From: Leucobacter sp. CX169
GTDB taxonomy: Bacteria > Actinomycetota > Actinomycetes > Actinomycetales > Microbacteriaceae
Assembly: GCF_017161405.1 (NCBI RefSeq)
Contig: NZ_CP071051.1
Span: 992,001 to 1,056,000, forward strand
Length of the DNA stretch: 64,000 bases
Direction: 5' to 3'
In this document: piece after piece, positions 42,794 through 46,087 of the stretch
How positions within the stretch are numbered: position 1 is the first letter of the stretch
How the letters are laid out: each line of letters starts with the position of its first letter
The notes under the pieces: model-generated
Database searches by the model: none
Told to the model about the DNA's origin: nothing
What the model saw: only the letters and a program-made list of their open reading frames with translations
Made by a program: the position numbers and the translations under genes

Positions 42794-43846
42794 GTGACCT
42801 CAGCTCTTCCGCTCTGGTTCGAAATTACCTCGATGGTCGTGCTTGTCGCCGTCCTCGTGTTCGACCTCTTGCTCGTCATTCGCCGTCCGCACATCCCCTC
42901 GATGCGGGAATCGAGCCTGTGGGTGGGCTTCTATGTCTTGCTCGCCCTGCTCTTCGCGGGCGCGATGTTCATCATTGGCGACGTGCAGCACGGAAGCGAG
43001 TTCCTCGCCGGCTGGCTCACTGAGTACAGCCTGTCGATCGACAACCTCTTCGTATTCGTCATCATCCTCGGACGCTTCGCCGTCCCGCCTGCCTATCAGC
43101 AGCGCGCGCTGATGATCGGCATCGTTCTCGCCCTCATCTTCCGCGGCATCTTCATCATTGCCGGTGCGGCCCTGATCGAGCGCTTCAGCTGGATCTTCTT
43201 CATTTTCGGCGCCTGGCTCATCTGGACGGCATGGCAGCAGGTGCGCCACGACGACACCGCGGAGCAGAAAGACAGCGCCTTTGTGCGCTGGATCAAGCGC
43301 GTACTGCCGTTCTCGGACGAGTTCGACGGCGGCAAGCTGAGCACGGTGAAGAACGGCAAGAAGATGTGGACGCCGATGCTGCTCGTGCTCATCGCTCTCG
43401 GCACGACCGACCTGCTGTTCGCGCTCGACTCGATTCCCGCGATCTTCGGTATCACGCAGAGCCCGTTTATCGTGTTCACGGCCAACGTCTTCGCGCTGAT
43501 GGGCCTGCGTCAGCTCTACTTCCTGCTCGGCGGCCTGCTCGAGCGCCTGAGCTACCTGCACTTCGGTATCGCCGCGATCCTGGCCTTCATCGGCGTGAAG
43601 CTCGTGCTGCACGCGCTGCACACCAACGAGCTGCCGTTCATTAACGGCGGCGAGCACGTGGACTGGGCGCCTGAGATCAGCACCTGGGCCTCGCTGGGCT
43701 TCATCGTCAGCGCGATGGCAATCGCGACCATCGCGAGCCTCATCAAGGTGCGCCGCGAGGAGAAGGCGGGCGGCGAACGGATGCACCTCGGCGCTTCCGA
43801 GCACCACACCGATTCTGCGAAGAGCGAAGCGCCGACCCAGGACTGA
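42794..43846 (+). CDS. terC: TerC family integral membrane protein (probable manganese exporter)
   Basis: A 350-aa membrane protein with eight to nine helices and the family motifs TEYSLSIDNLFVFVIIL near residue 70 and GTTDLLFALDSIPAIFG near residue 203, whose acidic residues bind the metal. TerC homologues move Mn2+ out of the cytoplasm (known for the family). I chose GTG 42794, which has AAAGGA about 7 nt upstream; the frame from 42725 overlaps the riboswitch. Controlled by the upstream yybP-ykoY element. Ends about 20 bp before the leucine leader promoter. Confidence 0.88.
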   Translation: MTSALPLWFEITSMVVLVAVLVFDLLLVIRRPHIPSMRESSLWVGFYVLLALLFAGAMFIIGDVQHGSEFLAGWLTEYSLSIDNLFVFVIILGRFAVPPAYQQRALMIGIVLALIFRGIFIIAGAALIERFSWIFFIFGAWLIWTAWQQVRHDDTAEQKDSAFVRWIKRVLPFSDEFDGGKLSTVKNGKKMWTPMLLVLIALGTTDLLFALDSIPAIFGITQSPFIVFTANVFALMGLRQLYFLLGGLLERLSYLHFGIAAILAFIGVKLVLHALHTNELPFINGGEHVDWAPEISTWASLGFIVSAMAIATIASLIKVRREEKAGGERMHLGASEHHTDSAKSEAPTQD

Positions 43847-43861
43847 CCGTCCGCTCGGTGA

Positions 43862-43867
43862 TAGAAT
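43862..43867 (+). promoter_or_regulatory. -10 box of the leucine leader
   Basis: TAGAAT (43862-43867) ends 7 nt before the leader ATG at 43875, the leaderless layout seen elsewhere here. No good -35 is visible 17 nt upstream. Confidence 0.5.
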
Positions 43868-43874
43868 CGCCGGT

Positions 43875-43919
43875 ATGCATACGCGGCGACTTCTCCTTCG
43901 ACGCCGCGACGGGGCCTAG
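43875..43919 (+). CDS. leuL: leucine operon leader peptide
   Basis: A 14-codon frame MHTRRLLLRRRDGA with three consecutive Leu codons (CTT CTC CTT at 43890-43898), directly upstream of leuCD and followed at once by a perfect 11-bp hairpin. This is the layout of a transcription-attenuation leader: low charged tRNA-Leu stalls the ribosome at the three codons and changes the folding of the RNA. The ATG lies 7 nt after TAGAAT, so the mRNA is probably leaderless. Confidence 0.8.
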   Translation: MHTRRLLLRRRDGA

Positions 43920-43941
43920 CCTGCAGCCGACCCCGTCGCGG
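43904..43941 (+). terminator. leuCD attenuator hairpin
   Basis: Perfect 11-bp arms CCGCGACGGGG (43904-43914) and CCCCGTCGCGG (43931-43941). The 5' arm lies inside the leader coding region, so a ribosome stalled on the Leu codons would cover it. A competing hairpin GCGGCG (43883-43888) with CGCCGC (43902-43907) uses the same bases. No T-run follows. Confidence 0.65.
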
Positions 43942-43991
43942 AGTGTCGCTATGGGCTGACCCCTTTCGAAGAAGAATTGAGACGCACACGC

Positions 43992-45479
43992 ATGACTGAG
44001 CACGTACAGACCCGCCCCCGCACCCTGGCCGAAAAGGTCTGGGACGACCACGTAGTGGTGAAGGGCACGGACGGGCAGCCTGACCTCATCTACATCGACC
44101 TGCACCTCGTGCACGAGGTCACGAGCCCGCAGGCGTTCGACGGCCTGCGCCTCGCCGACCGGCCGTTGCGCCGCGTCGACCTGACGATCGCGACCGAGGA
44201 TCACAACACCCCGACGCTGAACATCACGCGGGAGATCGCTGACCCGACGAGCCGCATCCAGATCGAGACGCTGCGCACCAACGCCGCCGAGTTCGGCGTG
44301 CGCCTGCACTCCCTCGGCGACAAGGAGCAGGGCATCGTCCACGTCGTGGGCCCGCAGCTCGGCTTGACCATGCCCGGCGTGACCGTCGTGTGTGGCGACA
44401 GCCACACCTCGACGCACGGCGCATTCGGTGCGATGGCCTTCGGCATCGGCACGAGCGAGGTCGAGCACGTCATGGCGACGCAGACTCTGCCGCTCAAGCC
44501 GTTCAAGACCATGGCGATCAACGTCGAGGGCGAGCTGCGCCCGGGGGTCACGGCGAAGGACATCATCCTCGCGGTGATCGCGAAGATCGGCACCGGCGGG
44601 GGACAGGGCTACGTGCTCGAGTACCGTGGCTCGGCGATCCGCGGACTGTCGATGGACGGCCGCATGACGATCTGCAACATGTCGATCGAGGCCGGCGCCC
44701 GCGCCGGCATGGTCGCCCCCGACGAGACCACGTACGCGTTTCTGAAGGGGCGCGACCACGCTCCCAAGGGCGCCGAGTGGGACGCGGCGGTCGAGTATTG
44801 GAACACCCTCCCGACCGACGAGGACGCGGTCTTCGACGCCGAGGTGTCGATTGATGCGAGCGCACTCGAGCCCTTCGTGACCTGGGGCACGAACCCTGGC
44901 CAGGGCGTTCTGCTCAGCGAGAACGTGCCGAACCCGGCCGACATCGCCGATCCGAACGAGCGCGCCGCGGCCGAGCGCGCGCTCGAGTACATGGACATCG
45001 AAGCCGGTACGCCGATGAAGGAGATCCCGGTCGACGCGGTCTTCATGGGCTCTTGCACGAACAGCCGCATGGACGACCTGCGCGCGTTCACTAGCCTGAT
45101 TGCCGGCAAGCAGAAGGCCGAGGGCGTGCGCGTCATGGTCGTGCCCGGCTCGGCCCGCGTGCGCCTCGAGGCCGAGGCCGAAGGCCTCGACAAGATCGTT
45201 GAGGCGTTCGGCGCCGAGTGGCGCTTCGCCGGTTGCTCGATGTGCCTCGGCATGAACCCCGATCAGTTGGCGCCCGGCGAGCGCTGCGCGTCGACCTCCA
45301 ACCGCAACTTCGAGGGTCGCCAGGGCAAGGGCGGGCGCACACACCTCGTGTCGCCGCTCGTCGCCGCCGCGACCGCGATTCGCGGCACCCTGTCGAGCCC
45401 GTGGGATCTCGCCGCGGACGAGGCCAACGGCATCACTCACGACGCAGTGGCCTCGGCCGCCGCAACGCAGGAGGCGTAA
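43992..45479 (+). CDS. leuC: 3-isopropylmalate dehydratase large subunit
   Basis: A 495-aa aconitase-family protein that, with LeuD, isomerises 2- to 3-isopropylmalate in leucine synthesis. Three Fe-S cysteines are seen: SCTNSR with Cys355, and FAGCSMC further on; the substrate loop [20 protein letters not shown] near residue 135 is complete. ATG 43992 is preferred; a TTG at 43977 with GAAGAAG before it would add five residues. Cotranscribed with leuD (5 bp gap) behind the attenuator. No leuA or leuB is in the window. Confidence 0.95.
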
Positions 45480-45484
45480 GGATC

Positions 45485-46087
45485 ATGGACAAGTTCACCA
45501 CCCTGACCGGCATCGCCGCTCCGCTCAAGCGCGGCAACGTCGACACGGACCAGATCATCCCCGCGGTGTACCTCAAGCGCGTCACGAAGACGGGCTTCGA
45601 GGACGCCCTGTTCGCCGGCTGGCGCCAGGACCCGGAGTTCGTGCTCAACCAGCCCGCCTTTCAGGGCGCGCAGGTGCTCGTGGCGGGCCCCGACTTCGGC
45701 ACCGGATCCTCGCGCGAGCACGCCGTGTGGGCGCTGCGCGACTTCGGCTTCAAGGTCGTCATCTCGCCCCGCTTCGGCGACATCTTCCGCGGCAATTCGG
45801 GCAAGCAGGGCCTCCTCGCCGCGCAGGTCGAGGAAGACGATGTGAAGGAGATCTGGGCCGCCCTTGAGGCGAACCCGGGACTCGAGATCACCGTCAGCCT
45901 CGAGGACCGTGAGGTGCGTTTCGGGGACCGCAAGGTTTCTTTCCAGATCGACGACTACACTCGGTGGCGCTTGATGGAGGGACTCGACGATATCTCGTTG
46001 ACGCTCCAGAACGAACAGGCGATTACCGACTTTGAAGCGCGTCGGGCGGCCTGGCTGCCCACCACTCTTCCGGTACAGACCGCGTAA
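45485..46087 (+). CDS. leuD: 3-isopropylmalate dehydratase small subunit
   Basis: A 200-aa partner of LeuC carrying the swivelling domain: [26 protein letters not shown] is the typical N-terminus and [17 protein letters not shown] near residue 78 the substrate-binding loop. ATG 45485 has AAGGATC close upstream. Same operon as leuC; the murA gene follows 12 bp later, so read-through from the leucine promoter into murA is likely. Confidence 0.95.

Follow-up and report, generated by a model that had tools for sequence, protein, structure and literature searches.

A LEU-type leader element upstream of leuCD in Leucobacter sp. CX169 and its relatives, with a candidate role in coupling leucyl-tRNA supply to leuCD translation

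In the classic leader attenuators of Escherichia coli, such as those of leu, trp and his, the ribosome stalls on codons for the end product of the pathway. Upstream of leuA, Seliverstov et al. described in 2005 the LEU element, which, in the available text of their paper, consists of an open reading frame (ORF) with Leu codons, a hairpin P2, a pseudoknot P3, and a base stem P1 formed by the Leu codons with the ribosome-binding region (PMC1262725). The same text records that mutations in the leuA leader of Streptomyces coelicolor did not fit classical attenuation, and argues for a binding protein (PMC1262725). According to the accessible parts of the respective papers, leucine leaders before leuA have also been reported in Corynebacterium glutamicum (PMC4046766) and C. 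diphtheriae (PMC5784534), the leuL leader of C. glutamicum being MTSRANLLLLRRGGSQRS (PMC8709942), and the leader of S. lividans leuA, MRFGLLLLSCRGEGL, is leaderless and devoid of a typical terminator (PMC8079986). As to leuCD, orthologues of NdgR/LtbR are described, in the sections available, as adjoining and regulating these genes (PMC4340878) and are listed for Actinobacteria (PMC8222616).

The window, namely the whole stretch of 64,000 nucleotides of Leucobacter sp. CX169 analyzed here, harbors leuC and leuD preceded by a leader (43862-43991) that, judging from its sequence, is a LEU element of the kind described in 2005 upstream of leuA (PMC1262725), here situated before leuCD (Table 1). 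It resembles the published element, as far as the available text describes the latter, in the ORF with a Leu run, the pseudoknot, a base stem that across the family joins the Leu codons to the ribosome-binding region, and the lack of an obvious terminator. In contrast, the genes named in that text are leuA and one transposase gene of B. longum, with protein binding preferred, whereas the window copy precedes leuC and not leuA; this position belongs to the way in which the LEU element was described and is not part of its structure. The likeness to the leuL leaders of S. lividans and C. glutamicum lies in four Leu in a row with an Arg within three residues and, for S. lividans, in the leaderless mRNA (predicted for the window) and the lack of a typical terminator, and the difference is that those leaders are located upstream of leuA and are treated as transcription attenuators in the portions of the papers at hand. 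Rfam covariance models gave no match up to an E-value of 1 within 43600-44200. The gene upstream of the leader encodes a TerC domain and has its stop codon at 43844-43846. In the same genome, a second LEU element with the leader MLHALLLLSCRDEA (followed by a stop codon) precedes leuA.

Table 1. Coordinates of the leader features and downstream genes in the window.
Feature	Position	Strand	Basis and remarks
Extended -10 TGA-TAGAAT (TGATAGAAT)	43859..43867	+	Read from sequence; 45 of 47 motif-bearing family elements (of 54) allow a 6-7 nt gap
TAGAAT	43862-43867	+	TGA directly before; 7 nt, then leader ATG 43875
Leader ORF MHTRRLLLRRRDGA with stop codon	43875..43919	+	Read from sequence
Three Leu codons CTT CTC CTT, also core of P1 5' strand	43890..43898	+	Sequence; CTT bias
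P1 (base stem) 5' strand	43891..43900	+	Fold, partner-swap tests
P1 3' strand, purine tract CGAAGAAGAA upstream of leuC	43967..43976	+	Sequence, fold
P2 5' arm CCGCGACGGGG	43904..43914	+	Covariation
P2 3' arm CCCCGTCGCGG	43931..43941	+	Covariation
P3 (pseudoknot) 5' strand CAGCC, within P2 loop	43924..43928	+	Sequence, partner-swap tests
P3 3' strand GGCTG	43954..43958	+	Sequence
leuC (3-isopropylmalate dehydratase large subunit), first gene presumed controlled	43992..45479	+	Start taken as ATG 43992; in-frame alternative TTG 43977
leuD, next gene after leuC	45485..46087	+	Aconitase_C domain

A LeuC search of 59 related genomes, in which the window's family was taken as Microbacteriaceae, yielded 30 loci, the upstream regions of which gave 21 leuC elements. 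These and the leuA element of the window's genome were aligned (A1) and used to build model R1. A search with R1 covered the same 59 genomes, and 80 regions were taken best first down to an E-value of 0.0019, with three passed over; the model thereby recovered leuA copies across the order, having been built from 21 leuC copies and a single leuA copy. Among the 82 regions (the 80 plus the genome's two copies), 21 precede leuC, 54 precede leuA, and 7 precede neither, the last comprising two before leuB (L140 and L144), one that runs off its contig (L125), and four that look like chance. The weak matches L142, L143, L146, and L148, tried as elements, lacked a leader ORF and were discarded as chance matches.

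Several further leaders were observed in the course of this collection. LEU-like leaders carrying Val/Ile/Leu codons (MARQLVILSSRGEFR, MRHALILRCRGGA, MRSVFVLIDCRGEA, and closely similar ones) lie upstream of leuB in other families (L140, L144, L155-L159), and the leader MQWSVRILSCRGGAR of L162 has leuB further downstream. A small ORF with a similar end (...QALQESMDLREQG, ...AVQRSLDLRDGGG, ...QALQEALDRRDNGG), possibly an overlooked small protein, occurs between leader and leuB in L140, L144, L155, L157, and L162. In some genomes of the family, one more leuA-like gene is preceded by an element of its own, with LLLRRHGGA-like leaders in L126 and L128 and close variants in L135, L145, and L165. 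In L150-L153, which precede leuA, the Leu codons and P2 are conserved, and a search for an ATG, GTG, or TTG start close to the Leu codons was negative.

The leader frame with three consecutive Leu codons and the 7-nt distance between the -10 and the leader ATG, both noted in a preliminary description of this locus, were read directly from the sequence, and the promoter spacing is consistent with its proposal that the mRNA is leaderless. The same leader was present in relatives, where that description had proposed to look for it, and these have kept the Leu codons, the hairpin, and the distance from the promoter. Of the 54 family elements, 47 (19/21 leuC, 28/33 leuA) have the extended -10 (TGNTANNNT) at 3-10 nt upstream of a leader start that is in frame, versus a mean of 0.44 and a maximum of 3 of 54 when the upstream sequences were shuffled, and a gap of 6-7 nt is possible in 45 of the 47. 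The leuCD transcript would accordingly start at or next to the leader ATG 43875. Within the 47 motif-bearing elements, CTT accounted for 89 of 190 leader Leu codons as opposed to 39 of 934 in downstream coding stretches, and for 7 of 151 Leu codons in four genes of the window. Runs of CTT/CTC are sequences that pair with AAGGAG-type sites, and the rarity of CTT may also sharpen sensing.

The perfect 11-bp hairpin with its 5' arm inside the leader was confirmed (P2; 11/11 pairs, 16-nt loop). Since single-sequence folding of the window leader alone was ordinary (z -1.63, with 12 of 200 shuffles folding at least as well), the case against chance rests on comparison and conservation. Over 78 elements in an alignment fitted to the model, 96.4% of the P2 cells were paired, and 53 cells had changed on both sides against 18.9 in shuffles, a value matched by 0 of 500 shuffles; an unfitted alignment of 22 elements gave 16 both-side changes against 6.7. 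P2 is nearly invariant in sequence, 8 of its 11 pairs never varying in the 22 elements. The alternative hairpin of overlapping bases that had been proposed alongside P2 appeared in the predicted fold at about 43867-43889, where part of it lies before the start codon and would be missing from a leaderless transcript, precluding its full formation; of the alternative pairings, P1 and P3 are the relevant ones. With a pseudoknot and a base stem, as in the known LEU element, the arrangement is not just the switch, simpler than the classic four-arm type, that had been envisaged.

The P1 stem of the window contains 9 of 10 pairs with one C.A mismatch (43895/43972), and the predicted fold adds pairing of leader positions 43875-43878 with 43990-43993, over the leuC start codon. 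It covers the purine tract, which ends 15 nt before the ATG 43992, a distance far for an SD sequence, and not the closer TTGAGA (43977-43982). For P3, a second possible, G-U-rich register exists at about 43917-43923/43952-43958 and is preferred by helix scoring. Both pairings were assessed by swapping the partners among genomes, the score being the number of permutations of 20,000 that reached the true pairing. The first set comprised 67 of the 75 leuA/leuC elements (L086, L131, L135, L138, and L139 lacked an ungapped P2; L114, L145, and L149 scored under the cut), and the n = 37 leuC set was obtained by adding 17 of 19 named loci with a match (L176 came from a contig already represented, and L193 lacked an ungapped P2).

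Between the Leu run and the segment from -22 to -4 (19 nt) relative to the next gene, P1 gave 1/20,000 for leuC (n = 37), 0/20,000 for family leuA (n = 32), and 0/20,000 for the pooled elements (n = 69). This repeat restricted to the Leu run was clearer than the version with wider stretches (leuC 125/20,000 with n = 20 and 62/20,000 with n = 37; leuA 0, pooled 0), which exceeded the Leu run plus SD and in which the best helix was situated elsewhere in at least 6 of 37 leuC elements (L078, L082, L102, L177, L179, and L194). The corresponding values for P3 were 383/20,000 (n = 20) and 18/20,000 (n = 37) for leuC, 416/20,000 for the pooled 52 elements, and 0/20,000 for all 67; the signal was weaker by duplex energies with interior loops than by ungapped helices, and was not significant for family leuA alone (4288/20,000). 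In order-level leuA (n = 13), neither P1 (4255/20,000) nor P3 (2295/20,000) was significant. A control pairing of loop and SD was flat (leuC 13005/20,000; n = 37, 15151/20,000), and one of the Leu run with the sequence after P2 was somewhat better than swapped (leuC 1339, leuA 2066, pooled 52 463, and n = 37 718 of 20,000), indicating that kinship inflates the partner-swap tests. Telling cases among leuC copies are UCCUUCUUCG/CGAAGAAGGA (L100) and CUUCUGUG/CACAGGAG (L106) for P1, and CCCCGGC/GCCGGGG (L111) and ACCGACC/GGUCGGU (L119) for P3, and poor ones for P1 are L102 and L179 with four pairs only and L082 with five. By comparison of the sequences, P1, P2, and P3 covary, and a base stem between the Leu codons and the downstream SD region appears across the family, the ribosome-binding-site geometry in the window being the weakest point.

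The effect of a ribosome on the leader was then predicted by masking, with P3 left out. When the leader was masked up to the Leu codons in the window, the unpaired fraction of AAGAAG (43970-43975) rose from 0.21 to 0.76-0.86 and that of the leuC ATG from 0.35 to 0.83-0.93, and with the ribosome at the leader stop codon both were virtually unchanged (0.22 and 0.35). The SD chosen automatically for the window, TTGAGA, moved in the opposite direction (0.68 free, 0.38-0.41 stalled), and by this automatic choice the window itself showed no sequestration; it was after this result that the purine tract and start codon were examined by hand. Across the family elements, the predicted cost of opening the SD fell when a ribosome was placed at the first Leu codon, in leuA from 5.91 to 2.46 kcal/mol (by more than 1 kcal/mol in 27 of 32 elements) and in leuC from 4.75 to 3.11 kcal/mol (by more than 1 kcal/mol in 11 of 20); the other 9 leuC elements showed no drop of that size, and in some the cost rose (in L100 from 6.8 to 11.8). 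In a control with the mask confined to the part of the leader preceding the Leu run, a drop of this size was seen in 5/20 leuC and 12/32 leuA elements, with medians of 0.15.

Taken together, we propose, with a probability of roughly 0.6, that this LEU-type element lets the supply of leucyl-tRNA set the translation of leuCD, i.e., by translational attenuation. Transcription would start at or next to the leader ATG, so that ribosomes would load at the RNA's 5' end. When leucine is plentiful, the ribosome would pass CTT CTC CTT, terminate, and depart, upon which P2 and P3 would fold and the freed Leu-codon strand would pair with the purine tract near the leuC start, turning leuC initiation off. 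With leucyl-tRNA scarce, the ribosome would stall on the Leu codons and sit on the P1 strand, leaving the leuC initiation region open, and the Leu codons would in this manner be both sensor and blocking strand. The preliminary description had the stalled ribosome cover the 5' arm of P2 directly; this arm begins 5 nt past the last Leu codon. If the 3' edge of the ribosome lies some 12 nt from the A site, stalling on the first Leu codon would place the ribosome over the P1 strand, with P2 barely reached. In contrast to the E. coli leu, trp, and his attenuators, no U-tract terminator was seen here, and the output would be translation.

The main rival, which we hold to be unlikely, is transcription attenuation, in which P2, or P2 with P3, would end transcription in leucine-rich cells, either intrinsically or via Rho, unless prevented by a stalled ribosome. 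Leucine transcription attenuation is what the accessible text describes for C. glutamicum leuA (PMC8709942), U is enriched after P2 (means of 3.45 of 10 in leuC and 3.66 in leuA), and the untranslated stretch from the leader stop to leuC could admit Rho. However, the attenuator terminating near 43941 that had been suggested was not borne out: a GC-rich hairpin followed by a U tract was not found, as the window has 3 T among the 10 nt that follow P2 and all 52 family elements counted have T runs of 4 or fewer there, and, of the additional pairings, the one with the best support is between the Leu codons and the ribosome-binding region of the gene downstream. A consensus promoter/terminator scan also found none, a weak negative given that its rules exclude loops longer than 8 (here 16 nt) and extended -10 sites without a -35 match. 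Moreover, the leuA leader of S. lividans is said, in the part of the source available, to lack a typical Rho-independent terminator (PMC8079986), and transcription attenuation would leave the P1 pairing of the Leu codons with the initiation region unexplained.

Binding of the LEU structure by a regulatory protein (ML1624-type, with a helicase domain), to which the leader peptide would be secondary, was proposed in PMC1262725, the available text of which also cites the mutants not fitting attenuation. The near-invariance of P2 in the 22 elements, exceeding what pairing alone needs, would suit such a protein, yet the invariant bases also encode the C-terminus of the leader, and in the leuC copies the Leu run is kept, as are the preference for CTT and the spacing of a leaderless start; we rate this explanation as quite improbable. 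Hardly any credence is given to a third view, that the leader is translated while leuCD is controlled mainly at transcription initiation, the element being a relic of duplication from leuA. The family genomes that have leuC and no detectable element (13 of 34) are in its favor, as is an apparently degenerate element before leuC in one of them (L014); a relic, however, would not keep the fit of P1 and P3 to their own partners that is seen in the leuC copies alone.

The element was present before leuC in 21 of the 34 window-family genomes with a strong LeuC match, and in the remaining 13 neither a leuC element nor a regulator of the NdgR/LtbR type was found, "not found" for leuC meaning no R1 match of E 0.0019 or better. 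Upstream of leuC in L014 (about 1386-1475), P2-like arms are still recognizable, and a leader ORF rich in Leu was not found. Of the 80 closest LeuC loci in named genomes, 27 are from Microbacteriaceae, 19 of them with the element before leuC, and 53 are not, none of these having it; the Microbacteriaceae with it include Leucobacter, Microbacterium, Agromyces, Leifsonia, Cryobacterium, Terrimesophilobacter, and Rathayibacter. A class-wide sample contained some element at E 5e-4 or better in at least 188 of 196 genomes; among the matches listed, a leuC-adjacent element occurred in all 11 family genomes and in none outside the family. In a LeuC tree built by a quick method, the window LeuC grouped with Leucobacter (98*), one ground for taking the family as Microbacteriaceae, and with an open backbone the tree required at least 6 changes of element presence, leaving a single gain with losses unsupported. 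Identity between leuC and leuA copies was 0.658 within versus 0.628 between genomes, which does not date the duplication.

The regulator side was surveyed with the Pseudarthrobacter IclR protein that is encoded divergently from leuC (Pfam IclR_C and HTH_IclR), its NdgR/LtbR-type label being given by position and family and not by a tree. Strong matches (58-100% identity) were obtained in 23 of 23 genomes of other families of the order, and by coordinates the regulator lies next to leuC in all 22 of these having a strong LeuC match. In contrast, none of the 36 family genomes gave a strong match, a single weak one being detected (G034, 36%, E 3e-22). NdgR/LtbR, according to the accessible text of PMC4340878 and PMC8222616, regulates leuCD and other leucine genes, and differs from the leader element in being a DNA-binding protein and in not being found in the 36 family genomes. 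As the regulator was not found in the family genomes and lies beside leuC in the other families examined, RNA control seems to replace the regulator protein; this swap is a correlation, because 13 of 34 family genomes show neither. What is new here is that an IclR regulator is apparently missing from a family in which leuCD bears an RNA element in many genomes. We consider it an even chance that, in an ancestor of the Microbacteriaceae, the LEU element of leuA was copied before leuCD, that the ribosome-sensing RNA took over and the NdgR/LtbR-type regulator was lost, the sensing codons themselves blocking the ribosome-binding site on a leaderless mRNA.

A search that did not cover most subscription journals found no published report of the leuCD-copy evidence or of this RNA-for-regulator case. 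In 2005 the mechanism of the LEU element was left open, with mutant data that, in the text available, fitted no classical model (PMC1262725). The leuCD copies provide a second set of sequences, in which it is the Leu codons that appear to act as the strand blocking the ribosome-binding region. The distribution of the element would in turn present a case of an RNA device standing where the sister families have a DNA-binding regulator.
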